The notes under the pieces: model-generated
Databases searched by the model: none
What the model was told of the DNA's origin: nothing
What the model saw: only the letters and a program-made list of their open reading frames with translations
Origin: Demequina sp. B12
Lineage (GTDB): Bacteria > Actinomycetota > Actinomycetes > Actinomycetales > Demequinaceae
Direction of reading: 5' to 3'
Assembly (NCBI RefSeq): GCF_028823635.1
Contig: NZ_JAPEHU010000002.1
Coordinates: 434,001 to 498,000, forward strand
DNA: 64,000 bases
Shown here: positions 16,034-53,244 of the stretch, in pieces
Numbering within the stretch: the stretch's first letter is position 1
Layout: the number at the start of each line of letters is the position of its first letter
Program-made: the position numbers and the translations under genes

Positions 16034-17131
16034 CTAGCGCGTTTCCTCAACACGCGCATCAGGAGCGGTTTCAGGGACGCGCTGCGGGAACAGACGGGGG
16101 CGGAGCCAGAGCGTGACGTAGACCAACCCCACGAGCACGGGCACCTCAATGAGGGGCCCGACCACACCGGCTAGCGCTTCACCGGACGCCGCTCCAAATG
16201 TGCCGATCGCCACCGCGATCGCAAGCTCGAAGTTGTTGCCGGCCGCGGTGAACGCGAGCGTGGTGGTGCGGGCATAGCCCAGCCCTAGTGCGCGTCCCGT
16301 GACCATGCCGACGCCCCACATGATGGCAAAGTAGGCCAGCAGCGGAACGGCGATTCGCGCGACATCCCACGGGTGAGCAACGACCTGCTCGCCCTGCAAT
16401 GCGAACAGCAACACGATGGTGAACAGCAGTCCGTACAACGCCCAGGGGCCTACGCGGGGCAGAAACGTCTCCTCGTACCATTCGCGTCCCTTGGCGCGTT
16501 CACCCAGCGCACGGGACGCAAAGCCGGCCGCGAGCGGTATGCCCAAGAAGATCAGGACGTTGAGGGCAATCGTGCCAATGGATGCGTCAAGGCCTTGGGT
16601 GTCCCACCCCAGCCAGCCCGGCAGGACGGTGAGATAGAACCAACCAAGAAGCGAAAACGCGACTACCTGGAACACGGAGTTGATGGCAACCAAAACTGCG
16701 GCGGCCTCCCGGTCGCCGCAGGCAAGGTCGTTCCAAATGACCACCATGGCGATGCATCGCGCGAGTCCCACGATGATGAGGCCGGTGCGGTACTCGGGAA
16801 GATCGGGCAGGAAAGTCCACGCCAGAGTGAACATGACGGCGGGGCCCACCAGCCAGTTCAGAACGAGCGACGAGGTCAGTAGCCGCTTGTCGCCGGTGAC
16901 GGCAGCGACTTTGTCGTAGCGAACCTTCGCCAGGACCGGGTACATCATGACGAGCAGCCCGAGCGCAATGGGGATCGAGATTCCGCCTACTTCAAGCGCT
17001 TCGAGTGCTTGCGAGACCTGCGGCACAAAGTGCCCCAGGGCAACGCCGCCCACCATGGCCAGACCGATCCACAAGGGTAGCCATCGGTCCAACGTGGACA
17101 AGCGTGAGGGTGCTACCTGCGTGACCGTCAT
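16034..17131 (-). CDS. acr3: Arsenite efflux transporter Acr3
   Basis: Exports arsenite (and possibly antimonite) across the cytoplasmic membrane, driven by the proton gradient. The 365-residue protein has about ten membrane helices in the bile acid/sodium symporter-like fold. The essential cysteine of the family is Cys126 in GLARCIAMVVIWNDLACG, and the conserved glutamate is in AAGNNFELAIAVAIG in the ninth helix. Its start overlaps the arsC stop by four bases, so the two are one operon transcribed from the ars control region near 17,550. Confidence 0.95.
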   Translation of the reverse strand: MTVTQVAPSRLSTLDRWLPLWIGLAMVGGVALGHFVPQVSQALEALEVGGISIPIALGLLVMMYPVLAKVRYDKVAAVTGDKRLLTSSLVLNWLVGPAVMFTLAWTFLPDLPEYRTGLIIVGLARCIAMVVIWNDLACGDREAAAVLVAINSVFQVVAFSLLGWFYLTVLPGWLGWDTQGLDASIGTIALNVLIFLGIPLAAGFASRALGERAKGREWYEETFLPRVGPWALYGLLFTIVLLFALQGEQVVAHPWDVARIAVPLLAYFAIMWGVGMVTGRALGLGYARTTTLAFTAAGNNFELAIAVAIGTFGAASGEALAGVVGPLIEVPVLVGLVYVTLWLRPRLFPQRVPETAPDARVEETR

Positions 17132-17532
17132 GAGAGCAGGTCAGCGAGAAGAGCTTCGACTCGGCCCTTGATGTCGTCGCGAATCGGGCGGACGCTATCG
17201 ATGCCCTGGCCGGCTGGGTCATCAAGCTTCCAGTCCTCGTAGCGCTTTCCGGGGTAGAACGGGCATGCGTCGCCGCATCCCATGGTGATGACCGCGTCAG
17301 AGGCCTCGACGGCTTCGGGTGTGAGGACCTTTGGTTGTTCTTCGCGGATGTCGATTCCTTCTTCAAGCATTGCCTCGACGGCCACGGGGTTGATCTGGTC
17401 CGCGGGCATGGAGCCGGCAGAACGTACCTCGACGGCGCCGCCAGAAAGGTGACGCATGTACCCGGCGGCCATTTGGGACCGGCCGGCGTTGTGGATGCAA
17501 ACGAAGATGACTGAGGGCTTGTTTTCGCTCAT
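17128..17532 (-). CDS. arsC: Arsenate reductase, low-molecular-weight phosphatase fold
   Basis: Reduces arsenate to arsenite for export by Acr3. The 134-residue protein has the phosphatase loop VCIHNAGRSQ (CX5R form, nucleophile Cys12) and a second site MGCGDACPFYPGKRYEDW with Cys86 and Cys90, followed by the DDPAGQG loop. Three cysteines allow either a thioredoxin-type disulfide cascade or the mycothiol/mycoredoxin route known in Corynebacterium; the sequence alone does not decide. A thioredoxin gene sits next to arsM at 53 kb. The ATG has no clear ribosome-binding site, and a candidate promoter places transcription start at the ATG. Confidence 0.93.
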   Translation of the reverse strand: MSENKPSVIFVCIHNAGRSQMAAGYMRHLSGGAVEVRSAGSMPADQINPVAVEAMLEEGIDIREEQPKVLTPEAVEASDAVITMGCGDACPFYPGKRYEDWKLDDPAGQGIDSVRPIRDDIKGRVEALLADLLS

Positions 17533-17538
17533 GAGGCA

Positions 17539-17598
17539 AGCATGGCCTCAACATTGACACCTGTCAATATTGAACGAAATCAATGGTTCATGTACTGT
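17539..17598. promoter_or_regulatory. Divergent ars promoter/operator with ArsR-type dyad
   Basis: ATTGACACCTGTCAAT (17553-17568) is an inverted repeat with perfect 7-bp arms around CC; a second palindrome TCAATATTGA overlaps it (17565-17574 approx.). For arsR (plus strand): -35 TTGAAC 17570-17575, 17-base spacer, -10 TACTGT 17593-17598, six bases before the ATG. For arsC-acr3 (minus strand): -35 TTGACA over 17567-17562, 17-base spacer, -10 CATGCT over 17544-17539, again six bases from the ATG. Both transcripts would be leaderless, and the dyad covers both -35 regions, which fits repression by ArsR. Confidence 0.72.
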
Positions 17599-17604
17599 CT
17601 GGAC

Positions 17605-17976
17605 ATGGACAGTCCCAAGAACCTGTTGGCCGATGCGAACGTGTGCCCTCCTGGCACTGCTGTAGTGGTGCCTACAGGGGATGTCGCCCCCTTCGCAGCC
17701 CGGCTGAAGGTTGTCTCGGACCCGATGCGCTTGAAGATTCTGGGCATTCTTGCGGCCAATGGAGCCGTGTGTGCGTGTGACCTCGAAGCGCCCCTGGGGT
17801 TGAGCCAGCCCACCGTTTCGCATCACCTGCGTCAGTTGTTTGAGGCGGGCTTGGTCACTCGCGAGAAGCGGGGGACCTGGGCGTTCTATCGAGTGGACCC
17901 TGAGGCGCTGAGCGCATTAGGAGCCCCGCTGTCACGGCTCGCAGATGCTGCCACAGCAACGGCGGAGTCTTCCTGA
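17605..17976 (+). CDS. arsR: Arsenic-responsive repressor ArsR
   Basis: A SmtB/ArsR-family winged-helix repressor that leaves DNA when arsenite binds. The 123-residue protein has the recognition helix LGLSQPTVSHHLRQL (about 64-78) and, just before it, CAC in VCACDLEAP (Cys56 and Cys58). This matches the ELCVCDL arsenite site of E. coli ArsR; Cys14 could be a third ligand. The frame is open further upstream, but the ATG at 17605 lies where the predicted transcription start is. Its 3' 91 bases overlap the convergent eamA gene. Confidence 0.9.
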   Translation: MDSPKNLLADANVCPPGTAVVVPTGDVAPFAARLKVVSDPMRLKILGILAANGAVCACDLEAPLGLSQPTVSHHLRQLFEAGLVTREKRGTWAFYRVDPEALSALGAPLSRLADAATATAESS

Positions 17977-18842
17977 GCCCTGCCCGGGCGGTGCGGCCTG
18001 CGGAGGAGTCCTTGGCCGATGCTGACGGCGACGACAATGAGGACTGCGCCCGACAGCTGCAACGGGGTCAATGACTCCTGCAGCGCATACCAGCCCAGAA
18101 GAGCTGCGGTGAGTGGGGCCAGGAATGCTAGTGAACTGACCTGGCTTGCTGGCAAGGCAAGAATCCCGCGGAACCACAGCAAGTAGGACACGAGGCCACC
18201 GGCGATTGCCAGCCATGCGAGTCCGGCCAGGTTGACGTTCGTCAAGGTGGAGGGCAATCCCTCCAGTGCGATGAGGGGAACGATCAAGATAAGGCCGCCC
18301 CATGTCAACTGCCATCCGGTGAAGGCTGCCAAACTCGTGGGGCGTCCCCACCGCTTGGTGAGAATGACGCCTGCGGCCGTTGAGGTGCCTGCGGCGAGGC
18401 CTGCCACCACGCCCACAGCATCGGCGCTGGCTCCGGGTGTCAATACCAGGAGCGCCACGCCAGCCAAGCCCAGTAGAGCGGCGGCGAGGGTGCGCCGCGC
18501 GCTGCCCTCTTTCAGTACGACGACCGCAAGGATTCCGACGATGAGAGGGTGGACGGCGCCGAGCGTGGCCGCTACGCCTCCGGGTAGCCGGTATGCGGAG
18601 ATGAAGAGAAGTGCGAAGAAAGCGCCGATGTTCAGCGTGCCAAGGATGGCCGACTTCCACCACCAGTCGCCCCGCGGGAGTGAGCGAGTCGCAGCAATGA
18701 GGACGAGTCCGACGGGGAGCGCGCGTGCCACTGAAGCGAGGAGGGGGCGACCCTCTGGCAGAAGTTCAGTCGTGACGAGATAGGTGGTTCCCCACAATAT
18801 GGGGGCGATCGCCGTCGTGGCGATGAGTGCTGGCCTGTTCAC
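17886..18842 (-). CDS. EamA-family (DMT) exporter
   Basis: A drug/metabolite-superfamily transporter of the inner membrane, with ten predicted helices in two EamA repeats (about 5-135 and 145-285). The first repeat starts APILWGTTYLVTTELLP and the second ends QLSGAVLIVVAVSIGQG. The substrate cannot be deduced; relatives export amino acids, purines or toxic metabolites. The start is GTG with AGGAG six bases upstream. The hydrophilic C-terminal tail (about 286-318) is encoded antisense to the end of arsR, a 91-bp tail-to-tail overlap. It is divergent from marR across an operator-like region, so MarR is its likely regulator. Confidence 0.85.
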   Translation of the reverse strand: MNRPALIATTAIAPILWGTTYLVTTELLPEGRPLLASVARALPVGLVLIAATRSLPRGDWWWKSAILGTLNIGAFFALLFISAYRLPGGVAATLGAVHPLIVGILAVVVLKEGSARRTLAAALLGLAGVALLVLTPGASADAVGVVAGLAAGTSTAAGVILTKRWGRPTSLAAFTGWQLTWGGLILIVPLIALEGLPSTLTNVNLAGLAWLAIAGGLVSYLLWFRGILALPASQVSSLAFLAPLTAALLGWYALQESLTPLQLSGAVLIVVAVSIGQGLLRRPHRPGRAQEDSAVAVAASASRDSGAPNALSASGSTR

Positions 18843-19494: not shown

Positions 19495-21849
19495 GTGGCG
19501 AACCCCGACGCTCACGATCTCATCAAAGTACGCGGAGCCCGCGAGAACAATCTGTGCGACATCGATGTCGACCTGCCCAAGCGGCGCCTCACGGTCTTCA
19601 CGGGCGTGTCCGGTTCCGGAAAAAGTTCACTGGTGTTCGGCACCATCGCCGCAGAGTCCCGCCGTCTCATCGACGAGACCTATCCCGCGTTCGTTCAAGG
19701 CTTCATGCCTTCGCTGAACAGGCCCGATGTTGACGTGCTTGAGGGGCTTACGACCGCGATCATGGTCGACCAAGAGCGGATGGGAGCCAACGCACGCTCT
19801 ACGGTCGGCACCGCCACCGATGCCAACGCGCTGCTCCGGACACTGTTCTCCCGCATAGCTGAGCCACACATCGGCTCACCCCAGGCATACTCGTTCAACG
19901 TTGCGTCCATCTCCGGCCAAGGCGCGGTGACGATGGACACCACGCGTGGTGACAAGAAGAAAGAAGTGCGGTCATTCTCGATCCAGGGTGGCCAGTGTTC
20001 GCGGTGCGAGGGCATGGGCTCTGTCTCCGACATTGACCTCAGCCAACTGTTCGACGAAACGAAGTCGCTCTCCGAAGGTGCCATCACGGTGCCCGGGTAC
20101 ACCGCTGACGGCTGGTATGTGCGGATCTACTCCGAGTCGGGATTCCTTGACGGCAGCAAGCCCATCAAAGACTTCACTAAGCGCGAGCGTGAGGACTTCC
20201 TGTACAAGGAGCCCACAAAGGTCAAGTTCGCCAACATGAACATGACGTACGAAGGGCTTGTGCCGCGGATCCAAAAATCGATGCTGAGCAAGGATCGGGA
20301 TGCGATGCAACCGCATATCCGGGCGTTTGTGGACCGTGCCGTCACCTTTCAAGAGTGCCCCGAATGTGCTGGTACCAGGCTCAATGACGCCGCACGATCC
20401 TCTCTCATCAACGGAAAGTCCATTGCTGACCTGTGCCGCATGCAGATCACAGACTTGTCCCAGTGGTGTGATGCGCTCGAGGCCCCGCAGGCCGCACCAT
20501 TGCTCGAAGGAATCCGGGCAGTGTTGCGTTCGTTCGTCGACATTGGTTTGGGATATCTCTCCCTTGAACGACCTACCGGGACGTTGTCCGGTGGTGAATC
20601 GCAACGCACCAAGATGATTCGTCACCTTGGTTCCGCGTTGACCGATGTCACGTACGTCTTTGACGAGCCCACCATCGGGCTGCATCCGCACGACATCCAG
20701 CGCATGAACAGCCTGCTACTCCAACTCCGCGACAAGGGCAACACGGTGCTGGTGGTCGAGCACAAGCCTGAAACGATCGCCATCGGCGACCATGTGGTCG
20801 ACATGGGACCTGGCGCAGGTAGCGACGGGGGAGAGGTGGTGTTCGAGGGCACCCCAGCCGATCTTGCGCAGGCAGACACCGTGACCGGCCGGCATCTCCA
20901 TGACCGTGCCTCCCTCAAGGACACCGTGCGCCAGGCCTCCGGGATGATCGAAGTGCGGGGTGCGAGCACACACAACCTCCGCGACGTCAGCGTCGACATA
21001 CCCAAGGGCGTGCTGACCGTAGTCACGGGAGTCGCGGGCTCCGGCAAGTCGTCGTTGATTCATGGGTCGGTGACGCCCATGGATGGCGTGATTGCGGTTG
21101 ACCAGAGTGCGATTCGGGGATCCCGCCGGTCAAGCCCTGCGACCTACACCGGACTGCTGGACCCCATTCGCAAGGCCTTCGCCAAAGCCAATGGTGTGAA
21201 GCCCGCGCTGTTCAGCTCGAACTCCGACGGTGCATGTCCCGTCTGCAAGGGCGCAGGAGTCGTGGTCACGGAGTTGGGGCCTTTCGACTCTGTAGAGACG
21301 CGATGCGAAGAATGCGAGGGACGTCGTTTCCAAGCAGATGTCTTGGAGTACCGGTTGGGCGGCAAGAACATCGCCGAGGTGTTGGACATGTCGGTGGCGC
21401 AAGCTGAGGAGTTCCTGGGCAGCGGAGAGGCGAAAACGCCCGCTGCGCACAAGATTGTGGTCCGCTTGAGAGACGTAGGGCTAGGTTATGTCAAGTTGGG
21501 GCAGCCGCTCACGACGTTGTCCGGAGGAGAACGCCAGCGACTGAAGTTGGCGGCACGTATGACGGAGAGCGGCGACATCTACGTTCTGGACGAGCCGACC
21601 ACAGGATTGCACTTGGCGGATGTCGAGACAATGTTGACGTTGCTGGACCGACTCGTCGACGCTGGGAAATCTGTGGTGGTCATTGAGCACCATCAGGCCG
21701 TCATGGCGCACGCAGACTGGATCATCGACATGGGTCCAGGTGCTGGTCATGACGGAGGGACGATCGTCTTCGAAGGAACGCCGCGCGATCTGATCGATTC
21801 GCAGCGGGGTCTCACAGCGGAGCATCTGGGTCAATACGTGGGTGCATGA
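19495..21849 (+). CDS. Short UvrA-like ABC ATPase (UvrA2/drug-resistance type)
   Basis: An excinuclease-A-like tandem ABC ATPase of 784 residues, against about 950 for true UvrA; the UvrB-binding region is reduced. First half: Walker A GVSGSGKSS (37-45), zinc-type CSRCEG and CPECAG, signature LSGGESQRTKM, Walker B VFDEPTIGLHP. Second half: GVAGSGKSS, CPVCKG with CEECEG, LSGGERQRLKL and VLDEPTTGLH. Such paralogs (for example DrrC-like) are linked to resistance to DNA-binding drugs rather than general excision repair. The GTG start follows AAGGAGGA (19484-19491). It lies directly before the dif site. Confidence 0.85.
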   Translation: MANPDAHDLIKVRGARENNLCDIDVDLPKRRLTVFTGVSGSGKSSLVFGTIAAESRRLIDETYPAFVQGFMPSLNRPDVDVLEGLTTAIMVDQERMGANARSTVGTATDANALLRTLFSRIAEPHIGSPQAYSFNVASISGQGAVTMDTTRGDKKKEVRSFSIQGGQCSRCEGMGSVSDIDLSQLFDETKSLSEGAITVPGYTADGWYVRIYSESGFLDGSKPIKDFTKREREDFLYKEPTKVKFANMNMTYEGLVPRIQKSMLSKDRDAMQPHIRAFVDRAVTFQECPECAGTRLNDAARSSLINGKSIADLCRMQITDLSQWCDALEAPQAAPLLEGIRAVLRSFVDIGLGYLSLERPTGTLSGGESQRTKMIRHLGSALTDVTYVFDEPTIGLHPHDIQRMNSLLLQLRDKGNTVLVVEHKPETIAIGDHVVDMGPGAGSDGGEVVFEGTPADLAQADTVTGRHLHDRASLKDTVRQASGMIEVRGASTHNLRDVSVDIPKGVLTVVTGVAGSGKSSLIHGSVTPMDGVIAVDQSAIRGSRRSSPATYTGLLDPIRKAFAKANGVKPALFSSNSDGACPVCKGAGVVVTELGPFDSVETRCEECEGRRFQADVLEYRLGGKNIAEVLDMSVAQAEEFLGSGEAKTPAAHKIVVRLRDVGLGYVKLGQPLTTLSGGERQRLKLAARMTESGDIYVLDEPTTGLHLADVETMLTLLDRLVDAGKSVVVIEHHQAVMAHADWIIDMGPGAGHDGGTIVFEGTPRDLIDSQRGLTAEHLGQYVGA

Positions 21850-21895
21850 CCGCAACGGTGTGCGCTGACCGATGGCTGGAGGCCGTGAGACGCAT

Positions 21896-21923
21896 AACGC
21901 CGATAATGTGCATTATGTCAAGT
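21896..21923. other. Candidate dif site (XerC/XerD recombination, replication terminus)
   Basis: A 28-bp sequence with the XerC/XerD layout: left 11-bp arm AACGCCGATAA, 6-bp spacer TGTGCA, right 11-bp arm TTATGTCAAGT. E. coli dif has right arm TTATGTTAAAT and the inner GATAA/CATAA...TTATG core, and actinobacterial dif sites as I remember them carry CCGATAATGTxCATTATGTCAAG. The arms are partial inverted repeats (ATAATG/CATTAT). It lies in a 122-bp gap between the uvrA-like gene and a minus-strand gene. Gene direction switches here: mainly plus to the left, minus for about 13 kb to the right, as expected where two replication forks meet. Confidence 0.82.
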
Positions 21924-21971
21924 AAGGCTGTTGTGGGCACTGCCCCAGGTCATTGACGGGGCGCACACGGA

Positions 21972-22502
21972 CTATCCGACGCCCTGATCCATCAAGCGCC
22001 ATTGGCCGGACGAATCCTGGCGCAACGTGTAGCCCCATTGTGTGGGGCCCTCCGAGAGCGAGCCGTCGTTGCGGAGCATCTTCCAGTTAAGATCAAAAGT
22101 CACCTGGACGGACACGACCTGCGTCCCCGCAGGAAGCTCCACCCAGGCCGGATCAATACTGTGTGGATCCTGGCTCACCTCGGTGTCCCGCAATGTGGCT
22201 TCGCCGCACCACGAACCCGTTGACATCGCATCGGTCAGCCACAAGGCGTCGGCTGTTTCACAATCACGTGCATTCACAGCCTCGATGTAGGTCGCGACAA
22301 CTTCCGTAGGGCTCGCGTCTTCTGCCGGCATCGCCACGTCACCTGGCCTCATGAGCGCCCACACCACCACGCCCGCGGCAATCAGAGTTAACGCGATTGC
22401 AGCACTCCCCCAGCCAAACTTCCTGCGCTGGCCCGCAGGTGTAACGTCTGACGGCACCGCCGTGCCGTGCGAGTCTCCTGGGGCGGGTGTCACGTGCTTC
22501 AT
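21972..22502 (-). CDS. Membrane-anchored protein with NTF2-like outer domain, function unknown
   Basis: I do not recognise a named family. The 176-residue protein (start ATG at 22502) has a short cytosolic N-terminus, one membrane helix (about 35-53, GWGSAAIALTLIAAGVVVW) and an extracytoplasmic domain. That domain begins with SPTEVVATYIEAVNARDCETADAL, which resembles the first helices of NTF2/DUF4878-like folds, and it has two cysteines (in DCETA and SWCGEA) that could form a disulfide. The start overlaps the stop of the upstream gene by one base (TGATG), so the two are co-translated. Confidence 0.7.
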   Translation of the reverse strand: MKHVTPAPGDSHGTAVPSDVTPAGQRRKFGWGSAAIALTLIAAGVVVWALMRPGDVAMPAEDASPTEVVATYIEAVNARDCETADALWLTDAMSTGSWCGEATLRDTEVSQDPHSIDPAWVELPAGTQVVSVQVTFDLNWKMLRNDGSLSEGPTQWGYTLRQDSSGQWRLMDQGVG

Positions 22503-23008
22503 CACTGAAGGCTCCTGTCCAGGATCGACTGAACGGCCCCGTAACCCGGGATGAGCACCACAGAGAGCATGAGGCAATAGCCAGCGGTCAGCAGCGCGCG
22601 CCGCGACTCTGCTGGGGTGTGCTTGTCGTGATCGCGGAACATTGTCAGTGCCATCGCCACACCCGCGAGTGAGGACAACCCCAGCGCCACGCACATGGCG
22701 ATGGCGATTCCTGGCACTGACATCATCAGCACGGTAGCTAGTGCCCACATCAAGGCCAAGACTTGATATGACAACAGCAACGCTCGTGCGGCAAGGGCGC
22801 GGTTCGTGGCCCTACCCTGCCGTACTTCTCGCATTGCACGATGACCGAGCAATACACCCAGCGGTGGAACAATCACGCTGCTGATGATCGCCGTCACCGC
22901 TAGCCAGTTCCGCGCATCAGGGGACGGGACAATGAGCGGTCCGTCAAGGTTTGACACCTGACCATTGATCACAAACTCAGTTGCTTGATAGCTGCGCGCG
23001 TCCGACAA
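22502..23008 (-). CDS. Small multi-pass membrane protein (DUF4190-like), function unknown
   Basis: A 168-residue protein with about four membrane helices: two near 36-56 and 75-95 and two more after 100. The first helix region and following loop, IVPPLGVLLGHRAMREVRQG, match the pattern of DUF4190-type proteins common in Actinomycetota. The N-terminal 35 residues are cytosolic. It is the first gene of a two-gene unit with the membrane-anchored protein downstream. No function can be assigned from sequence. Confidence 0.7.
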   Translation of the reverse strand: MSDARSYQATEFVINGQVSNLDGPLIVPSPDARNWLAVTAIISSVIVPPLGVLLGHRAMREVRQGRATNRALAARALLLSYQVLALMWALATVLMMSVPGIAIAMCVALGLSSLAGVAMALTMFRDHDKHTPAESRRALLTAGYCLMLSVVLIPGYGAVQSILDRSLQ

Positions 23009-23102
23009 GACGGCACTCCCCCTTCGTGTGTGCCCGGAAACAGCAACGGGCCTGGTATCTGCACGCTAGCAGATTCCAGGCCCGGAGGCTGTTGCAAGAC
23101 TT

Positions 23103-23600
23103 TTACAGTGCCGCGACCGCCCTCAGCTCGGTCACGACTTGGCTTGCCCAATCGCGGATGGCCGCGAAGTCTCGGAAGTCACCCTTGGGAGGATTGAGTG
23201 CCCGGATGATGGCCTTCTCCCCCATGTTGAGCTTTTCGTAATCCAGGGCACCGTCGAAGCGCTGGTGCTCACGGGCGTTGATAAGCGCCGTGAGTTCCTT
23301 TGCTTCCTCGAACTCTTGGTTCGGCGTGGTCACGGTCGCCATGCCTACGGAGAACAGCCACACATCGCGGTTCTTGAGCTCTTCGCTGTGCTCGCGCACC
23401 AGCGCTGAGGCATCACGCCGCCATAGACCCCCGTAGACGGCAGAGCCGATCACGAAGGCGTCGTAGTAGTGGATGCCCGTGACTTCGTGTGCCGGGGCAC
23501 AGTCGACTTCAAAACCGGCTTCATTGAGCACGGCTGCAACTGCTTCCCCGACTTCGCGGGTAGCGCCGTACTTAGAACCTGTGGCGACCAAAACCTTCAT
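23103..23600 (-). CDS. Flavodoxin-domain protein
   Basis: A 165-residue single-domain FMN-binding protein. The N-terminal phosphate loop is MKVLVATGSKYGATREVGE, followed by YDAFVIGSAVYGGLWRRDA, the second flavin-contacting loop; this form resembles menaquinone-dependent protoporphyrinogen oxidase-like flavodoxins more than long-chain electron carriers. The start at 23600 is chosen because GAGGAGG lies just upstream and MKVLVATG begins the fold; the frame continues 29 codons further. It probably moves electrons in the cytosol; the partner is unknown. Confidence 0.82.
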   Translation of the reverse strand: MKVLVATGSKYGATREVGEAVAAVLNEAGFEVDCAPAHEVTGIHYYDAFVIGSAVYGGLWRRDASALVREHSEELKNRDVWLFSVGMATVTTPNQEFEEAKELTALINAREHQRFDGALDYEKLNMGEKAIIRALNPPKGDFRDFAAIRDWASQVVTELRAVAAL

Positions 23601-23748
23601 GACGAACCTCCTCGCGGCTGTTACTACCACTATGCTCGCCAAAACCCCGATGTGCGAGGGACTATGGTCCCCGCGTCGCGGTCGCAATGGATGGTGACGC
23701 CTATCGTGCCTGGCAGACGTGCTGAGGTTTCAAGCTGGGCCTAGACAT

Positions 23749-23800
23749 GCCAACGCCCTCGCTCAGTCCCGTCATGAGACCTCTGAGCAAGGGCGTTGGC
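23749..23800 (-). terminator. Strong stem-loop behind pyc
   Basis: Arms GCCAACGCCCTCGCTCAG (23749-23766) and CTGAGCAAGGGCGTTGGC (23783-23800) form an 18-bp stem with a 16-base loop. The one DNA mismatch becomes a G-U pair in the minus-strand RNA, so the stem is complete only for the pyc transcript. There is no U-run after it, so it may act as a factor-dependent terminator or an RNA 3'-end stabiliser. Confidence 0.75.
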
Positions 23801-23807
23801 GAGTGTC

Positions 23808-26800
23808 TTACGGTTCGATCACCAAGATCAGGTCTTTGCCCGACAGCGCCTCAGCGCCCGACACCACCACACGGGCAACAGTGCCTGAGATGGGCGCCGT
23901 GATCGCAGACTCCATCTTCATCGCCTCGATCACTGCAACCGTCTGTCCGGCCTCGACCTGAGCGCCTTCCTCGACGGCCGCAGAAACGGAACCAGAGAAT
24001 GGTGCGGCGACGTGTCCCTCGACAGTCGCATCGGCCTTCTCTCGCTCCACCACGTCGACCTTGGCTGACTCGTCACGGATCTGGACTGGTCGCAGCTGCC
24101 CGTTGTAATTGAACATTGCCGTGCGTTCGCCGTGGTCGTCGGGTTCGCCCAAGGCCTCTAGGGAGACCAGTACCTGGACGCCCTCCCCCAGTTCGACCAT
24201 GGCTTCTTCCCCACTGCCGACCGTCAATCCATAGAGATAGTGGAAGGTGTCGACCACAGAAATGTCGCCGTACTGTTCAACGGCGGCATCGAACTCGCGG
24301 GCCGGGCCAGGGAACAAGAGATGGTTCAGAGCACGTTGGCGTTCCGGTCCGGCCTGTGTCAGCGCGGCCTTGTCCTCGTCGCTCAGTTCCTTACGTGCAG
24401 GGGCTGCTGCGCGGCCCTGAAGGGCCTTGGTGCGGAACGGCTCAGGCCAACCGGCGGGAGGGACACCCAAGTCTCCCTGGAGGAACCCAATGACCGAATC
24501 AGGCAGGTCGTACTCCTGAGGGTTCGCCTCGAAGTCTGCCGGGTCGGTGCCATTGGCCACCAGGTTGAGTGCAAGGTCGCCCACCACCTTGGATGAGGGC
24601 GTGACCTTCACGAGTCGACCCAGCATCGCATCGGCTGCCGCGTAGGTGTCTTCGATCTGTTCGAACTTGTCTGCCAAGCCCAAGGAGATCGCCTGCTGGC
24701 GAAGGTTGGACAGTTGTCCGCCGGGAATTTCGTGGCGGTACACGCGGCCAGTAGGCGCCGATAGTCCCGACTCGTACGGTCCGTACAGTTTGCGGACGGC
24801 CTCCCAGTACGGCTCCAAGTCCTGTGCGGCGGACAACGGAATCGCGGTGTCGCGAGCGGTGTACTCCATCGCAGCGATCAGAGCAGCCATGGGCGGCTGC
24901 GAGGTCGTGCCGGCCATCGCCGCGTTAGCGACGTCTACCGCGTCTACACCGGCTTCTGCGGCAGCAAGCAATGTGGCGACCTGACCGCCGGTGGTGTCAT
25001 GGGTGTGGAGGTGGACGGGAAGGTCAAAGCGAGACCGCAACGCATCGACGAGCATGAAGCCCGAGGCGGGACGCAGCAGGCCTGCCATGTCCTTGATTGC
25101 CAGGATGTGTGCGCCAGCGTCGACCAACTGCTCTGCCAGCCGTAGGTAGTAGTCGAGCGTGTAGATGTCTTCATCCGGTGACACCATGTTGCCCGTGTAG
25201 CAGATCGTCGCCTCGGCGACTGACGTGCCGGTGGCCCGCACGGCTTCGATCGCAGGACGCATCTGGTCGACGTCGTTGAGGGCGTCGAAGATGCGGAAGA
25301 TGTCAATGCCGACCTCCGTGGCTTCCTCAACAAAGGCATGCGCGACTTCGTCCGGGTACGGCGTGTAGCCCACGGTGTTGCGTCCACGCAGCAGCATCTG
25401 CAATGCGATGTTGGGAACTGCTTCACGAAGGTTGGCGAGGCGCTGCCACGGGTCCTCCGACAGGAACCGCATCGCGACGTCGTAGGTGGCGCCACCCCAG
25501 CATTCCAGCGAGAACAACTCGGGGGCCATGCGTGCGGTGTGCCCTGCGGCGCCCAGAAGGTCGTAGGTGCGTACACGTGTCGCCAACAGCGACTGGTGCG
25601 CATCGCGCATGGTCGTGTCCGTGAGGCGCAGGCGACGGTCCTGACGGAGGGCCGATGCGAAACCTTCCGGGCCGAGTTCGAGTAGCTGTTGGCGTGTGCC
25701 GTCAGGGATGGGTGCGTTGAGATCGATCTGCGGCAGTTTGGTGCGGGGGGTCAGCAGTGCCCTGGACGGCTCGCCGTGAGGACGATTCACCGTGGTGTGG
25801 CCCAAGAAGTTCAGCAGTTTGGTCGACCGTTCGGCGCTCTCCGGCACTTCCAGCAGGTATGGACGCTCGTCAATGAAGCCGGTCGTGACTCCCCCGGCTT
25901 GGAAGGCTTCGTCTGCCAGGACTGCCCGAAGGAAGCGGATGTTGTTGGTCACACCGCGAATGCGGAACTCCGCCAATGCGCGTGCAGCGCGACGCACGGC
26001 AGCCTCGAAGTCGTGGCCGCGGCACGTCAGCTTGACCAGCATGGAGTCAAAGTGGCCTGTGACAGTATTTCCGGCCATGCCGGTCGCGCCATCGAGGCGT
26101 ACGCCTGCACCACCGGGTGAGCGATACGCGACGATGCGTCCTGTGTCCGGGATAAAACCGTTGGTGGGGTCTTCTGTGGTGATACGGGTTTGGACCGCGT
26201 ATCCGTTGGTACGGATGTCCTCTTGGTGAATCCCGATCTCGGGCAGGCTCTCCCCCGCCGCAATGCGCATCTGTGCGCTGACGATGTCGATGTCGGTGAC
26301 TTCTTCCGTCACCGTGTGTTCCACCTGAATACGGGGGTTCATCTCGATGAACACGTGCTCGCCGGCGCGTTCGCCCTCGGTGGCGACCAGGAACTCCACC
26401 GTTCCGGCGTTCACATAACCCAGCGACTGCGCGAACTTCACCGCGTCAGCACACAGCGCCTCACGGATGGCTGGGTCGAGCGCAGGCGCCGGTGCGATCT
26501 CGATGACCTTCTGGTGACGCCGCTGAACCGAGCAATCACGCTCGAACAGGTGCACCACGTTGCCGTGTGCGTCAGCCAGGATCTGGACCTCGATGTGGCG
26601 TGGGCCCAGAACCGCCTGCTCCAAGAACACCGTGGAGTCACCGAACGCGTTCTCTGCCTCCCGCATCGCTGCGGCGAGGGCTTCAGGGAGAGCCTCCCTG
26701 GATTCGACACGGCGCATTCCTCGTCCACCGCCACCGGCGACAGCCTTCACAAACACCGGGAAGCCGATGCGGTCAGCCGCTTCAATGAGTTCCGCAGGGT

Positions 26801-27218
26801 CCTTGGAAGGTTCCGACGAGTCGAGGACCGGAACGCCTGCCTCACGTGCCGCTTTGAGGGCGGCTACCTTGTCACCTGCTTGGGCGAGCACCTCTGGGGG
26901 CGGGCCCACGAAGGTGAGACCTTCATCCGCGCACCGCTGTGCGAGCTCCACGTTCTCTGACAGGAAGCCATAGCCGGGGTAGATGGCGTCAGCACCTGCG
27001 TGCCGGGCCACACGGACCATCTCGTCGATGTCGAGGTATGCCTTGACCGGGTGGCCCTCGTCGCCGATCTGGTAAGCCTCATCGGCCTTGACACGGTGTT
27101 CTGACATGCGGTCTTCGTACGGGAAGACGGCGACTGTGCGTGCACCCAACTCGTAAGCCGCGCGGAAAGCGCGCACAGCGATTTCGGCACGGTTGGCAAC
27201 AAGAACCTTAGAGAACAA
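23808..27218 (-). CDS. pyc: Pyruvate carboxylase
   Basis: Carboxylates pyruvate to oxaloacetate with ATP and biotin, refilling the citric acid cycle. The 1136-residue length is normal. Order of domains: biotin carboxylase (about 1-450, starting MFSKVLVANRAEIAVRA, with VAGGGGRGMRRV and the arginine of EMNPRIQVEHTVTE), carboxyltransferase (about 520-800, DTTMRDAHQSLLATR and the metal site LHTHDTTGG), allosteric linker, and C-terminal biotinyl domain with VIEAMKMESAI, the lysine being biotinylated. The start is TTG at 27218, with AAGGGA upstream. A long stem-loop follows the stop. Confidence 0.96.
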   Translation of the reverse strand: MFSKVLVANRAEIAVRAFRAAYELGARTVAVFPYEDRMSEHRVKADEAYQIGDEGHPVKAYLDIDEMVRVARHAGADAIYPGYGFLSENVELAQRCADEGLTFVGPPPEVLAQAGDKVAALKAAREAGVPVLDSSEPSKDPAELIEAADRIGFPVFVKAVAGGGGRGMRRVESREALPEALAAAMREAENAFGDSTVFLEQAVLGPRHIEVQILADAHGNVVHLFERDCSVQRRHQKVIEIAPAPALDPAIREALCADAVKFAQSLGYVNAGTVEFLVATEGERAGEHVFIEMNPRIQVEHTVTEEVTDIDIVSAQMRIAAGESLPEIGIHQEDIRTNGYAVQTRITTEDPTNGFIPDTGRIVAYRSPGGAGVRLDGATGMAGNTVTGHFDSMLVKLTCRGHDFEAAVRRAARALAEFRIRGVTNNIRFLRAVLADEAFQAGGVTTGFIDERPYLLEVPESAERSTKLLNFLGHTTVNRPHGEPSRALLTPRTKLPQIDLNAPIPDGTRQQLLELGPEGFASALRQDRRLRLTDTTMRDAHQSLLATRVRTYDLLGAAGHTARMAPELFSLECWGGATYDVAMRFLSEDPWQRLANLREAVPNIALQMLLRGRNTVGYTPYPDEVAHAFVEEATEVGIDIFRIFDALNDVDQMRPAIEAVRATGTSVAEATICYTGNMVSPDEDIYTLDYYLRLAEQLVDAGAHILAIKDMAGLLRPASGFMLVDALRSRFDLPVHLHTHDTTGGQVATLLAAAEAGVDAVDVANAAMAGTTSQPPMAALIAAMEYTARDTAIPLSAAQDLEPYWEAVRKLYGPYESGLSAPTGRVYRHEIPGGQLSNLRQQAISLGLADKFEQIEDTYAAADAMLGRLVKVTPSSKVVGDLALNLVANGTDPADFEANPQEYDLPDSVIGFLQGDLGVPPAGWPEPFRTKALQGRAAAPARKELSDEDKAALTQAGPERQRALNHLLFPGPAREFDAAVEQYGDISVVDTFHYLYGLTVGSGEEAMVELGEGVQVLVSLEALGEPDDHGERTAMFNYNGQLRPVQIRDESAKVDVVEREKADATVEGHVAAPFSGSVSAAVEEGAQVEAGQTVAVIEAMKMESAITAPISGTVARVVVSGAEALSGKDLILVIEP

Positions 27219-27299
27219 CGGTTTTCCCTTCGACGGTGAAGTTAATCCTGCCAGGCTTGTGCAGACCTGACCGCACTCACCGGTGGGAACTTGAAGGAC

Positions 27300-27881
27300 T
27301 TAAGACGCGTGGGTGCGCTTGGCACGACGCTGCGCGAGCTCGTCCATATGGTTGGATTCCGGCTCAACCACGCCGTCGCCCTTGTCTGCGGGCAGTGCGG
27401 ACAGCGATCCCTCAAGCTCGCGCCACACCTTGCCCAGGGCGATTCCAAAGACACCCTGTCCACCCTGGACCAGGTCGATGACCTCATCATCTGAGGTGCA
27501 CTCGTACACCGAGGCGCCATCAGACATCAGCGTGATTCGGGACAGGTCTTCAACCCCACGCTCTCGCAGGGTGTCGACGGCTGCACGGATCTGTTGGAGC
27601 GATACACCGGAGTCGAGCAGCCGCTTCACTACTCGCAACACCAGAATGTCTCGGAAGCCATACAGGCGTTGCGTTCCGGAACCTGTGGCGCCGCGCACGG
27701 TCGGTTCAACCAAGCCGGTCCGAGCCCAGTAGTCGAGTTGGCGGTACGTGATGCCGGCCGCCTTGCAAGCGGTCGGTCCGCGATATCCCGCGTTCTTGTC
27801 GAGGTGAGCTAGGCCGTCGTCAAACAGAACACCCTGGTCCTGCAGTGCACTCATATCGTGACCACCGGTCTGAGCCATCAT
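27300..27881 (-). CDS. MerR-family regulator (Rv1830-like)
   Basis: A 193-residue MerR-type transcription factor. Its winged helix is in the middle of the N-terminal half: GYRGPTACKAAGITYRQLDY, then WARTGLVEPTVRGA and FRDILVLRVVKRLLDSGVSL. The C-terminal part is not the classical coiled-coil sensor and carries a conserved acidic block. Gene context matches the Mycobacterium order garA-Rv1828-Rv1829-Rv1830, except that the bifunctional nuclease (Rv1829-type) is missing here. Two adjacent ATGs (27881, 27878) are possible starts behind GGAGGGG. Confidence 0.82.
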   Translation of the reverse strand: MMAQTGGHDMSALQDQGVLFDDGLAHLDKNAGYRGPTACKAAGITYRQLDYWARTGLVEPTVRGATGSGTQRLYGFRDILVLRVVKRLLDSGVSLQQIRAAVDTLRERGVEDLSRITLMSDGASVYECTSDDEVIDLVQGGQGVFGIALGKVWRELEGSLSALPADKGDGVVEPESNHMDELAQRRAKRTHAS

Positions 27882-27974
27882 CCCCTCCTCATCAACTAAC
27901 TGTGACCAAACTAGAGATCAGGGCCACCCTGGTCAACGCACCACGCGGCGCTGGGGATAGCCGTGTCCTCATTG

Positions 27975-28703
27975 TTATCGGTCGACTTCCGCGTGTACCC
28001 AAGCGCTGAACATCGCAATTGCCGCATCGGACCGTTGTCGCACTTGAGCATCGGCCTCAGCGTCATTGCCCTTGGTACGCGCGGGCCGGGAGAGCTCGCG
28101 TGCCTCGTGCGCTTCGCGCTGCGCGGCGCGCACCAGGTTCTTCAGCGCTCGAAGGTCGCCGCCCGCGTCAACGTATGCCTGCGCTGCGACGACGATCTCC
28201 ACCGCGGAACGCTCATAACGGCCGGGCGAGGTTTGAGCAATGATCGCTGCCGCGGTGAGTTCGTCTACCAACTCCAGAGAAGCCGAGGCATTGGAAGCAA
28301 GTTCCGATGTCGCAAGCAGGGGTTCCCGGTGTGTCACTTCGTGAAGCGAGACGGGTTCGTGCAACAGCCCCGCGTCAAGTTGCGCGAGGTAGTCGGCAAT
28401 GACTGACAGGGGGCGGTAGTGATCCCGCTGCTGACGCAAGACGAACCTCAGGCGCTCAACGTCCGCGGGCGAGTACTGGCGGTATCCAGATGGAGTTCTT
28501 ACCGGGGTGACGAGGCCATTGGAGTCCAGAAAGCGAAGCTTCGAAGAGGTGAGTGCAGGGAACTCCTGGGAAACTTGCGCAAGCACGTCGCTGACGCGCA
28601 AATGCGCGTCGTGGGAAAGCGCGTGAGGCCAGGTCCCCGACACGGACGCAGCCGGAGTAGTCCCGGCCGGTTCGGGAAGGGGGACGGCGCTCAGCGCAGC
28701 CAT
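27975..28703 (-). CDS. ftsR: MerR-family regulator, FtsR-like
   Basis: A 242-residue MerR-type protein with an unusually long, Pro/Ala-rich N-terminal tail (about 1-33) before the winged helix RVSDVLAQVSQEFPALTSSK, then FLDSNGLVTPVRTPSGYRQY. The C-terminal half is helical with an extra, helix-turn-helix-like block. Its position next to a GarA/OdhI gene matches cg1631 (FtsR, an activator of ftsZ in Corynebacterium glutamicum) and Rv1828. The symbol rests on this synteny and domain layout, so it is likely rather than proven. It starts four bases after the FHA gene stop. Confidence 0.7.
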   Translation of the reverse strand: MAALSAVPLPEPAGTTPAASVSGTWPHALSHDAHLRVSDVLAQVSQEFPALTSSKLRFLDSNGLVTPVRTPSGYRQYSPADVERLRFVLRQQRDHYRPLSVIADYLAQLDAGLLHEPVSLHEVTHREPLLATSELASNASASLELVDELTAAAIIAQTSPGRYERSAVEIVVAAQAYVDAGGDLRALKNLVRAAQREAHEARELSRPARTKGNDAEADAQVRQRSDAAIAMFSAWVHAEVDR

Positions 28704-28707
28704 CGAT

Positions 28708-29130
28708 TCAGGCTACCGAGCCGGGGTGGAAGGTCATGCGGTACTTGCCAATCTGCACTTCGTCACCAGCGTTGAGCTTGGCTTCAGACACCAGTTCCCG
28801 GTTCACGTACGTGCCGTTCAAGGAGCCCGCATCGCGAACGTAGAAGTCCTTGCCATCCCGAATGAACTGCACGTGCTCGCGTGACACGGTGACGTCGTCA
28901 AGGAAGATGTCACCCTTCACCGAACGTCCGGCGGTCGTCACGTCAACATCAAGCAGGAAGCGTGCTCCCTGGTTGGGGCCGTGGTGCACGATCAGAAGTG
29001 CACAGGCTTCGTCCAATGCGGCCACAGCTGCATCGTCCTGCGCGGACATGCGAGTGGGTGCTGATTCGTCGACAGGCAGTTGCGCATCCAGGGACATGGT
29101 GCGTTCAACTGGGCTTTCGTCGTAGGTCAT
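28708..29130 (-). CDS. garA: FHA-domain protein, GarA/OdhI family
   Basis: A 140-residue phosphopeptide-binding protein. In mycobacteria and corynebacteria the unphosphorylated form binds and inhibits 2-oxoglutarate dehydrogenase, and Ser/Thr kinases relieve this. The FHA domain (about 60-135) has AGRSVKGDIFLDDVTVSREH and GSLNGTYVNRE. The N-terminal tail does not have the usual ETTSVFR phosphorylation motif; ERTMSLDA is at the corresponding place, with Thr11 as the likely phospho-site. The start overlaps the CDP-alcohol transferase stop (ATGA). Confidence 0.82.
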   Translation of the reverse strand: MTYDESPVERTMSLDAQLPVDESAPTRMSAQDDAAVAALDEACALLIVHHGPNQGARFLLDVDVTTAGRSVKGDIFLDDVTVSREHVQFIRDGKDFYVRDAGSLNGTYVNRELVSEAKLNAGDEVQIGKYRMTFHPGSVA

Positions 29131-29774
29131 GACGCCTCCCTACTGTTGTGGTCGTTGGTATCCATCTTAGGCGTGGTGGCCTGCTGGAGGGCGTTACGCC
29201 GTGAGGCGCGTTCGTGAATGTCACGCACGTATCCCACGCCGCTTACCCAATACAAGACCGCAGCTCCACATGCGCCCACGATCGCCACCACGTGCAACCA
29301 GTCCCACCTGTCGAAACTGATGTAGGCCAGCGGAAGGAACACGTAGAGCGCGAATGTGGCGCTCTTGCCCACGAAGGTCACGTGCGGACTTGGGGTCTTG
29401 CGCACGCGCCCGTAGAGCAATGCGCTGCCGACCATGGCGTCCCGGGCCATCAGGACGATGACTAGCCACCACGGAATGATGTCTCGCACGGCGAGACCGA
29501 AGACTACGACGATGGTCAGGAGACGGTCGGCGGCTGGGTCGAGGAGACGGCCAAGTTTGGTGACTTGGTTCCAGCGGCGTGCAAGGTATCCGTCGAGGAA
29601 ATCGCTGATGCCAGCAAGGGCGAGCACGATGATCGCCCCAACATCCTGCGCAGCGAAGAAGAACCCCCCGAACACCCCGATCAGCAGGATGCGAACAAAC
29701 GAAATGACGTTGGGGAGCGTCCAAATCGCCGCCGACGGGACCTTGGTGGCACCAGATGCGGAGGGATCACTCAC
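29127..29774 (-). CDS. CDP-alcohol phosphatidyltransferase family protein (PgsA-like)
   Basis: A 215-residue membrane enzyme that swaps the CMP of a CDP-lipid for an alcohol, most likely making phosphatidylglycerol phosphate or a related phospholipid. The signature DG-xx-AR-x8-G-xxx-D-xxx-D is intact in DGYLARRWNQVTKLGRLLD followed by PAAD. About five to six membrane helices are predicted. Start is GTG at 29774. Its stop overlaps the garA start. In Mycobacterium pgsA2 also lies close to garA, supporting an orthologous neighbourhood; the alcohol acceptor is not certain. Confidence 0.82.
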   Translation of the reverse strand: MSDPSASGATKVPSAAIWTLPNVISFVRILLIGVFGGFFFAAQDVGAIIVLALAGISDFLDGYLARRWNQVTKLGRLLDPAADRLLTIVVVFGLAVRDIIPWWLVIVLMARDAMVGSALLYGRVRKTPSPHVTFVGKSATFALYVFLPLAYISFDRWDWLHVVAIVGACGAAVLYWVSGVGYVRDIHERASRRNALQQATTPKMDTNDHNSREAS

Positions 29775-29784
29775 GCAGGGGAGT

Positions 29785-29937
29785 CTACTTGTCCTTTGCT
29801 TCCTGGGCTAACACCTTGTCGACGGTCTCCGACGCGATCCGGGTTGCTTCATCCTCTGACGCGCCGCGTGCCAACTCCTTGGCGCGGATCTGGTCGAACT
29901 TGTACCGCCGAGTCTCGGTGGAGTGTTGCTCGGTCAT
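29785..29937 (-). CDS. Small conserved hypothetical protein, 50 residues
   Basis: I do not recognise a characterised family. The ATG at 29937 with GGAGAGGG just upstream starts MTEQHSTETRRYKFDQIRAK; the longer frame has no such site. The product is a soluble, highly charged, probably helical peptide whose middle, ELARGASEDEATRIA, is a compact helix-turn-helix-like segment seen in many short actinobacterial proteins. It lies ten bases before the pgsA-like start on the same strand, so it is probably co-transcribed with the garA cluster. Confidence 0.7.
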   Translation of the reverse strand: MTEQHSTETRRYKFDQIRAKELARGASEDEATRIASETVDKVLAQEAKDK

Positions 29938-30034
29938 CACCCTCTCCTTACCGTTCGCGCGGACCCCCGTGGTCCTGATCTCCAGGCTATGCCTGGAAGC
30001 GGTCCGATGCACGCGCATCGGACCGCCGTCAGAG

Positions 30035-31717
30035 CTAGTTTGCGAGGGGGTTGAAGGTGTCGTAGGTGGCGATGACGGTACGCACGCGCTCCAGCGCGTC
30101 TTCGTCGAGGTCCGCGTCGCCAGTGACTACGTGCAAGGAATCGAGTGCAAGGTTCCCGTACTTGTGGCCCTGATCCTCGGGAACTCCTTGGCTCAGGATG
30201 AGGTCGATGATGCCTTGGAAGGCTGTGACCCCGGGGATCCAGAACATGTCGTCGCTGACTTGGTCTGAGCGTTGACCCGGCTGCAACCACGCAGGTTCAG
30301 ACCAGATTACGGACGGCCCAATCCAGACAATGGGGTCGTTGCCGTGTTGAAGGTACGCAACCTTGGTGCCGTCCCACTGAGAGCTGGGTTCTTCTAGCCC
30401 GCCCCAGCGATCAGTCCACCGTACGTGTTCGCCTTGGTCCAATACTGGGAGCGCGTAGGGAGAGCCCTCGTCCCTGCGGTCCTGAAGTGTCGACCACAGT
30501 GACGTGAAACTTGGCGTCCCCGCGAGAACCGCGCCGTTGGTCTTGTCGAGGAGTTCTTGTTCGGAGTCGAAGGCGGCATTCATGCCGTACGAACCCAAGC
30601 TGAGCCCATAGACGGTGAGTTGTGGGCGGGAGTCATCGGGAAGTGCCGACCACCACTCGTACACAGCATCAAAGAGAGCGGATGTTCCTTCAGGTGCGAG
30701 GTCCGGCGTCAGCAACGCCGACACTGGGCTGGGCGTCGCACCGTATTGGAGGGTGACAAGCGCCGTATCTCCAGCGTGCAGGTACTCAAAACCATCGATC
30801 GCTGCCGGGTCGAGCCAGCCGGACCCCGTGGTTCCCGCGACAAGAAGCTGCGCCCTGTCGGCAGCCCCGGTACGTTCAAGTTCCTCGACGGCGAGTTGGG
30901 CCCTTTCGGCCAACGTGGGGGCCGAGTCCATCCCCACGTAGATGCGGATGGGTTCGGTAGCTTCGGTACCCGTAATCGCGGAGAGCTCCTCGACCGACGG
31001 GCCACCTCCGACAATCTTGGCGCCCGCCTGGCCTACGGACTCCCACGACACCGCACTGCTCGAACTTCCAGAACGCAGCTCAGTGGTGGGTTGCGCGAAG
31101 GCAGGGTCGTAGTGGTCGTTTCGTGCGCCATACAACGATGTGAGCAACAGCGACAGGATGGTGGTGCCGACCCCCAGAACGAGGAGAACACCGACCACGC
31201 TGGTGGCGCCCGCCGTGAGCGAGACCGCCACGGGTCGTGGACCGTGGTCTCGCCGTGACACCTTGGTCAGCAAGGCGACGACACCCTTGCGCAGGAAGTT
31301 GTGAAGACGCCGTACTCCCCTGCCGATGGCGAAGCCCAGCCACACACCCAGAGAACCACCGAGCACGATGCCCAGCCAATGCAAGCCATCCATCGGAGCG
31401 ATCCCCACAGCTTCGCGGATGTCGTTCTGCCAACGCACCGCGAGAGGTGACAGCGCGACAAACAGCGCGCCCGTTCCCACCGTCACAAGCCACGCAGGGG
31501 CCGAGGCGTCCCACTTCAATCGGCCGTATGACAGAAGGCGGATCAGGCGCCACGTGAGCACCCCAAGCCCGTAGCCCAAGGCAAAGGCAAGTCCTGCGAC
31601 GAGCCCCTGACCCCACGCGGGGCGAGGGAGCAATGATGGTGTCAGCGATGCCGTCACGAACAGCACGCCAACGATCGATCCCACGACGTCAAGTCGTCGT
31701 TCCCGCCACTGGCTCAT
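30035..31717 (-). CDS. Membrane alpha/beta-hydrolase (Abhydrolase_9 family)
   Basis: A 560-residue integral-membrane protein in two parts. The N-terminal part (about 1-210) has four to five membrane helices, typical of the Abhydrolase_9_N family. The C-terminal part (about 255-560) is an alpha/beta hydrolase outside the membrane with nucleophile elbow YGLSLGSYG and a late histidine region. Relatives in Mycobacterium and other Actinomycetota have unknown substrates; a lipid or cell-envelope ester is a guess. The ATG at 31717 is seven bases after GGAGAGG and is preferred to the GTG/ATG further upstream. Confidence 0.8.
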   Translation of the reverse strand: MSQWRERRLDVVGSIVGVLFVTASLTPSLLPRPAWGQGLVAGLAFALGYGLGVLTWRLIRLLSYGRLKWDASAPAWLVTVGTGALFVALSPLAVRWQNDIREAVGIAPMDGLHWLGIVLGGSLGVWLGFAIGRGVRRLHNFLRKGVVALLTKVSRRDHGPRPVAVSLTAGATSVVGVLLVLGVGTTILSLLLTSLYGARNDHYDPAFAQPTTELRSGSSSSAVSWESVGQAGAKIVGGGPSVEELSAITGTEATEPIRIYVGMDSAPTLAERAQLAVEELERTGAADRAQLLVAGTTGSGWLDPAAIDGFEYLHAGDTALVTLQYGATPSPVSALLTPDLAPEGTSALFDAVYEWWSALPDDSRPQLTVYGLSLGSYGMNAAFDSEQELLDKTNGAVLAGTPSFTSLWSTLQDRRDEGSPYALPVLDQGEHVRWTDRWGGLEEPSSQWDGTKVAYLQHGNDPIVWIGPSVIWSEPAWLQPGQRSDQVSDDMFWIPGVTAFQGIIDLILSQGVPEDQGHKYGNLALDSLHVVTGDADLDEDALERVRTVIATYDTFNPLAN

Positions 31718-31798
31718 ATGTGTGCCTCTCCAGGTGTGTCCCGATGAACTGAGCCACACACTAGCGGGCGCCGGTGACGGAAAGAGTGAACTCGGGTG

Positions 31799-47818: not shown

Positions 47819-47838
47819 TGCTGTGACGTCACACGTGC

Positions 47839-48909: not shown

Positions 48910-49050
48910 CTGGGTTCCTTTGGGTGAGCGCCTTCGTTGGTGCTGGTGGACACCTTAGTGGTGGCGCCGGAATAGTGCGGCCGATACCTGGTGTTACCTG
49001 ACACAACGACGTATCAGGCAGCGTTCCCGCCGGACTCCTAGGAGGTTCTG

Positions 49051-50622: not shown

Positions 50623-50695
50623 TGCGAGGATGACTGCACAGGCCCTGCGCCTGAACTGGGACGCAAAGGATCAACGGCGATTCATGAGGAGTGCC

Positions 50696-51481: not shown

Positions 51482-51484
51482 CAC

Positions 51485-52333: not shown

Positions 52334-52364
52334 GCGCCAGTCACACGCTAGGTCGAGTGTGGTT

Positions 52365-52781
52365 CTAGCGCGTGGCTAGAGCGGGGATCACGTGATGTTC
52401 GAGCAGCGGGGCCAGGTCCTGCGGCAGGCTGGTTCCGGACACGTCGAGCCATCGCAACTCTTCGATCTCTGCAGCCGGAGCGTCAACCAGAACTGTGTCG
52501 TGGCTGTACACGTGCGCGTGGACGCGGAAGCCGTCCTCGTTAGCTGCGGGGGCGGTGAACACGCCCACATCCGTGAGGTTTCTTTCTTCGAGAACCACAC
52601 CGAGTTCCTCGGCAACTTCTCGAACCGCTGTCTGGCGCGGGCTCTCCCCCGCCTCCGGCTTGCCGCCTGGGAGCATGAACCGTTGCGTTCCACGCTTACG
52701 CACCGTCAACACCAGTCCTTGAGCATTGCGAATCACCACGGCGCTGACATGGATGAGGCGGTCATGAGGTTCGGAGGCCAT
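52365..52781 (-). CDS. Nudix hydrolase
   Basis: A 138-residue single-domain Nudix enzyme. The box is complete in GGKPEAGESPRQTAVREVAE with ELGV following. The substrate could be a damaged or modified nucleotide such as 8-oxo-dGTP, or a nucleoside diphosphate derivative; it cannot be read from the sequence. The ATG at 52781 is preferred; an in-frame TTG lies at 52790. It is convergent with the SDR gene and followed upstream by the thioredoxin gene on the same strand. Confidence 0.85.
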   Translation of the reverse strand: MASEPHDRLIHVSAVVIRNAQGLVLTVRKRGTQRFMLPGGKPEAGESPRQTAVREVAEELGVVLEERNLTDVGVFTAPAANEDGFRVHAHVYSHDTVLVDAPAAEIEELRWLDVSGTSLPQDLAPLLEHHVIPALATR

Positions 52782-52823
52782 GGTCCCCAAGTCTAGGTGC
52801 CGGCCACAATGGCTGAGGAGTCG

Positions 52824-53204: not shown

Positions 53205-53213
53205 ATCATCAGT

Positions 53214-53229
53214 ATACCCCTAGGGGTAT
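53214..53229. promoter_or_regulatory. CsoR-like palindrome at the thioredoxin promoter
   Basis: ATACCCCTAGGGGTAT is a perfect 16-bp palindrome with the TACCCC...GGGGTA pattern of CsoR/RicR-type (copper or persulfide) repressor sites. It lies nine bases upstream of the trx ATG and overlaps the -10 TATACT (53211-53216), a repressor position. No CsoR-family gene is in this window, so any regulator acts in trans. Confidence 0.65.
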
Positions 53230-53244
53230 GGGCTTGCCGGCCAT

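Follow-up and report, generated by a model that had tools for sequence, protein, structure and literature searches.

Dif is the place where fused chromosome copies are separated before division, and the resolution of chromosome dimers there by XerCD and FtsK is established. In actinobacteria, the accessible text of PMC3025954 predicts dif in 66 of 66 genomes, as a 28-bp site with a common core that occurs in one copy in the terminus region, and prints the F. alni dif as CACGCCGATAATGCACATTATGTCAAGT. The sequences that guide FtsK and SpoIIIE (KOPS/SRS) are short, G-rich words of the leading strand whose strand switches at dif. A broader class, the architecture imparting sequences (AIMS), is described in the accessible part of PMC5993296 as strand-biased words that become more abundant and more biased towards the terminus. 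The accessible part of PMC13342612 suggests that motifs of this type may be difficult to find in GC-rich genomes, with Deinococcus radiodurans as its example.

The window, by which we mean the whole stretch of 64,000 nucleotides analysed here, contains a 28-mer, AACGCCGATAATGTGCATTATGTCAAGT, which has in common with the actinobacterial sites its 28-bp length, its core, its single copy and its place in the terminus region. This 28-mer, at 455896-455923 of contig C21, is very probably an actinobacterium's own chromosomal dif and an ordinary one, next to which we infer a KOPS role for the motif RGGGGAG (Table 1). The most likely reading of the locus is an ordinary dif/XerCD/FtsK terminus whose guide sequence would be RGGGGAG, not GGGNAGGG, with FtsK as its putative binding partner. 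The dif site itself was expected, and the motif converging on it is the more useful part.

Table 1. Features in and around the dif region, in window coordinates
Feature	Position	Strand	Basis or remark
acr3	16034-17131	-	clear family match
Low-molecular-weight phosphatase	17128-17532	-	clear family match
EamA transporter	17886-18842	-	clear family match
UvrA-like gene, 784 aa	19495-21849	+	UvrA model has 924 positions
dif, 28 bp	21896-21923	+	25/28 versus F. alni dif; copy number; relatives
Left arm AACGCCGATAA, presumed XerC arm	21896-21906	+	analogy with published dif sites
Central region TGTGCA	21907-21912	+	sequence; position by analogy
Right arm TTATGTCAAGT, presumed XerD arm	21913-21923	+	identical to F. 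alni right arm
ORF	21972-22748	-	without a hit in Pfam or NCBIfam
Switch interval, 1584 bp	20827-22411	.	last plus GGGGGAG on the left (20827) to first minus on the right (22411)
RGGGGAG stretch left of dif	393-20833	+	10 plus and 0 minus sites; all point at dif
RGGGGAG stretch right of dif	22405-63635	-	19 minus sites towards dif, 2 plus sites away (29777, 55746)

Identity, copy number and neighbours of the dif site

The 28-mer has the 11-6-11 layout AACGCCGATAA-TGTGCA-TTATGTCAAGT and agrees with the F. alni dif at 25 of 28 positions, the right 11-bp arm being identical; the three bases that differ are two central ones and a single one in the outer part of the left arm. The layout is common to the E. 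coli dif as well, and a preliminary description of this DNA had likened the right arm to the XerD arm of E. coli. That likeness holds at 9 of 11 positions of the arm it quoted, but by sequence the proper comparator is the actinobacterial dif, which is closer. With up to three mismatches allowed, the core had one match in the window, none in 100 dinucleotide shuffles and one in the 2,332,661-base, 52-contig draft genome, so the match is not a product of chance; the reversed pattern had no match in the draft genome at the same tolerance. The identification of the sequence as dif, made in the preliminary description, is thus upheld by its agreement with F. alni and its standing as the sole match in the draft genome, where the proposed search for other 28-mers of this pattern returned no second match with three or fewer mismatches.

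Fifty of 59 relatives had a dif match, with exactly one copy apiece, and the reversed pattern matched in none of the 59. Searching the nine remaining relatives with a shorter pattern gave a near-consensus core (0-2 mismatches) in five (G012, G037, G038, G043 and G055), in a looser search whose reversed control also matched in four of the nine. The shorter pattern gave nothing better than three mismatches in G013, G029, G045 and G050, so that for 4 of 59 relatives neither search gave a convincing dif. Scanning named genomes with 23 fixed core bases returned at least 117 stretches; judging by their titles and genera, we take all 117 listed to be from Actinomycetota. The exact window 28-mer occurred in one of these 117 listed loci. 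Across 30 oriented loci, the mean majority fraction was 0.44 in the left flank, 0.46 in the right flank and 0.89 in the 28-mer, the last value being high partly by construction because the loci were chosen by that pattern.

Integrated elements also carry dif-like sites, according to the accessible text of PMC3025954, and the 28-mer might therefore be an attachment site derived from such an element (IMEX) or from a phage, not the host's own dif. Integration at dif normally leaves two copies, however, and the draft genome has one copy at three or fewer mismatches, for which reason we rejected an element-borne dif. With 50 relatives also holding one copy each, and with the polarity switch of the whole of contig C21 falling at the 28-mer (below), we regard such an origin as exceedingly improbable.

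The host's dif lies in a 122-bp gap (21850-21971) between the UvrA-like gene and an ORF on the opposite strand, in keeping with the short gap after a uvrA-like gene noted in the preliminary description. The UvrA-like product scored 686.8 bits against a cut-off of 729.8, below the threshold of the UvrA model, and is shorter than that model. Within the 1.5-kb dif flanks of 30 relatives, a UvrA-like gene occurred in three (L002, L003 and L025), in differing arrangements, and the downstream ORF in none. The neighbours are therefore not a fixed part of the dif site, and we rejected a fixed dif neighbourhood. Farther upstream, 16034-17976 resembles an arsenic-resistance cluster, with an ACR3 arsenite efflux gene and a low-molecular-weight phosphatase gene on the minus strand and an ArsR-type regulator gene on the plus strand. 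Rfam and ARAGORN searches of the window found only one tRNA-Pro.

GC skew, gene direction and the terminus region

GC skew on C21 is positive to the left of dif and near zero to negative to its right. The cumulative skew climbs to a plateau of about 10,000 at 455-500 kb and then declines. Its maximum, at C21:486557 (window 52557), lies 30.6 kb beyond dif on its right, a distance equal to 1.3% of the genome as represented by unordered draft contigs, and a two-segment fit placed the change point at C21:495945, 40 kb to the right. A local hump of positive skew, reaching 0.130 at window positions 46001-54000, displaces the cumulative maximum from dif, and the plateau that holds the maximum begins near dif. 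For Proteobacteria and Firmicutes, the accessible text of PMC3025954 puts the corresponding distance (one sigma) at 0.00-1.39% of genome length, against 1.3% here. GC skew was rejected as an exact marker of dif, being too blunt here by 30-40 kb.

Dif is where chromosome dimers are resolved and not necessarily the base where the replication forks meet, because the skew maximum is offset here and because the accessible parts of PMC3025954 and PMC13342612 state that dif and the termination point need not coincide. The earlier view that this site marks the terminus accordingly stands for the terminus region, to which the single match and the strand switch of polar words point, and does not extend to the exact base of fork meeting.

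Gene direction had been cited as further evidence of a terminus. The change around dif is real but statistical, since a simple ORF-based gene model gave 251 plus-strand and 149 minus-strand genes to the left of dif on C21 and 52 and 97, respectively, to the right. The minus-strand run from 21,972 to 35,275 was recovered, as all ORFs kept by the simple gene model there are on the minus strand. The reported run of 16 plus-strand genes from base 1 proved wrong because the acr3, phosphatase and EamA transporter genes upstream of dif lie on the minus strand; what remains of the change in direction is a statistical shift and not the end of an unbroken plus run.

Polarity of RGGGGAG in this genome and in other Actinomycetota

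Polar octamers were picked from two other contigs, C41 as given and C30 in reverse, with the orientation set from their GC skew, and were then counted along C21. There these octamers switched polarity no more than about 0.5 kb from dif. With the top 20, 50, 100 and 200 words, the cumulative maximum lay at 455740, 455838, 455838 and 456180 and the change point at 455740, 456361, 456206 and 456206. The strongest polar octamers were versions of GGGGGAG, and RGGGGAG drives the switch. On C21, the octamer CGGGGGAG was found 56+/0- to the left of dif and 0+/18- to the right, GGGGGAG 103+/0- and 0+/38-, AGGGGAG 53+/5- and 3+/18-, and RGGGGAG in total 156+/5- and 3+/56-. The last plus and first minus GGGGGAG thus place dif within a switch interval of less than 2 kb (Table 1). 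We rejected GGGNAGGG as the main polar motif: it was weakly polar on C21 (31+/25- left, 4+/13- right) and gave 44/41 left and 24/107 right in the 117 listed loci.

Polarity of this kind could arise as a mere by-product, whether of codon usage, of the way genes are oriented or of GC skew. Other G-rich words on C21 are somewhat skewed (GGGGG 493+/249- left, 89+/179- right), as is the C-rich word CGCCGCC in the 117 listed loci (z 12.8). GGGGGAG, however, is convergent at 141 of 141 sites on C21, whereas 18 of its 21 single-base variants are 38-69% convergent; the variants that keep part of the bias are AGGGGAG (71:8), GGGGGAC (75:18) and GGGGGAT (26:9). Its sites also fall in genes of both orientations: to the left of dif, 54 lie in genes on the plus strand, 40 in genes on the minus strand and 9 outside both, and to the right the minus sites number 9, 25 and 4, respectively. 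In the 117 listed loci, moreover, GGGGGCG (117:174) and GGGGGTG (93:216) point away from dif more often than towards it. On this evidence a by-product is very unlikely.

The specific convergence of RGGGGAG extends to other Actinomycetota. The 117 listed named loci cover up to 8 kb each, with 438,969 bases to the left and 472,761 bases to the right of dif, and RGGGGAG points towards dif at 690 sites and away at 15. Sites towards dif outnumbered sites away in 116 of the 117 loci, with one tied and the motif absent from none, in a set that is non-independent (17 loci are from Nocardia, and there are 39 genus or MAG labels altogether); the same held for 39 of 39 labels. The z of GGGGGAG, 21.7, was the largest of 5957 heptamers tested, and 300 random re-orientations of the listed loci reached a largest z of 8.9. 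In the window's own locus and 30 relatives (L001-L031), GGGGGAG gave 23/0 on the left and 0/48 on the right, and the three Acidimicrobiia loci among those listed gave 16:2 for RGGGGAG. As a control, the 25 kb on each side of the E. coli K-12 dif gave 10:0 for GGGNAGGG and 2:1 for GGGGGAG.

RGGGGAG as a putative KOPS and the recombination machinery

RGGGGAG resembles KOPS and SRS in being a short, G-rich, leading-strand word that switches strand at dif; it differs from them in sequence, and its reading by FtsK is putative. Compared with E. coli, it would take the place of GGGNAGGG, the enterobacterial-type KOPS sequence, which is not the main polar word here. Its polarity, specificity and position suggest that RGGGGAG is probably the KOPS that orients FtsK towards dif in the group to which this dif belongs. 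We also consider it likely that RGGGGAG orients FtsK throughout Actinomycetota, or in the class Actinomycetes at the least, replacing GGGNAGGG, being read by an FtsK gamma domain with a recognition helix changed from GYNRAAR to GFAKAGR, and locating dif within 1-2 kb without a dif model. If it is the actinobacterial KOPS, RGGGGAG offers a concrete FtsK guide sequence to test, and it may serve as a simple terminus finder and assembly check for GC-rich genomes. The accessible literature that we searched yielded no mention of RGGGGAG as a guide sequence, although an earlier report may exist; the accessible text of PMC5993296 has no occurrence of GGGGGAG, and that of PMC11898615 none of "GGG".

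As in AIMS, the octamers found here are strand-biased and more frequent on leading strands; here, one dominant word has near-total bias. The functions of most such octamers are unknown according to the accessible part of PMC5993296, and RGGGGAG, even at a real dif, could serve some purpose for which FtsK does not read it, for example a Chi-like one in repair or replication. Its bias does extend over most of the chromosome and is not confined to the surroundings of dif: on C10, which carries DnaA at about 346.7 kb, counts to the right of dnaA were 55+/6-, 53+/4- and 61+/0- (contigs unordered). To the left of dnaA, in bases 1-347000, polarity is weak (10+/28- and 22+/18-), which counts against the KOPS reading. 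Some classes of the phylum also carry other FtsK gamma helices. Nonetheless, the strand switch falls at dif, FtsK gamma is encoded in the genome, and both the bias and, on C21, the density appear to increase towards dif (13.3, 18.0 and 19.9 plus sites per 50 kb, as raw counts on unordered contigs), as the accessible text of PMC5357621 gives for KOPS. A role apart from FtsK therefore seems unlikely, although it is the rival that carries most weight.

The FtsK gamma domain had one match in the genome, on C30. The gamma piece alone matched no solved structure at E 1e-5, and the longer protein matched 2ius and 2iut, in whose FtsK chains GYNRAAR aligns with GFAKAGR here. The residues of this helix stretch are presumably those that contact KOPS, and their alteration lends indirect support to the putative binding of RGGGGAG by FtsK gamma. 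Among 25 loci from 24 chosen genomes of the same class, 22 had GFAKAGR, one GFARAGR and one GFAKGGR, and one, a second and weaker match in one genome, had no pattern match. The best 30 of 61 matches from the phylum's other classes comprised GFARAGR (9), GYSRAAR (7), GYTRAGR (4), GYSRAGR (4), GYARAAR (3), GYARAGR (2) and GYTRAAR (1). With several variants across classes the helix change is not all-or-none, and it cannot yet be tied to the motif because Acidimicrobiia loci show RGGGGAG too. If the reading holds, FtsK and the sequence that guides it may have changed in concert.

As in the E. coli dif/XerCD/FtsK system, XerC-, XerD- and FtsK-gamma-like proteins are encoded here and polar motifs converge on dif. 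Seven tyrosine-recombinase matches were found in the genome. The best two were an XerD-like protein encoded on C21 at a distance of 60 kb from dif and an XerC-like one on C30; between XerC and XerD each scored best against its own family, and both scored below the NCBIfam equivalog cut-offs, the XerD frame being a 283-aa ORF that starts at profile position 19 and lacks the first residues. By analogy with the established system, XerC and XerD would bind the two 11-bp arms and recombine the two dif copies of dimeric sister chromosomes. FtsK would load on RGGGGAG facing the way that takes it to dif and, on meeting XerCD at the 28-mer, would activate XerD, leading to the resolution of chromosome dimers. 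At a contig end, bases 42-18414 of C10 hold four tyrosine-recombinase matches in 18.4 kb, perhaps a mobile element or an integrase cluster.
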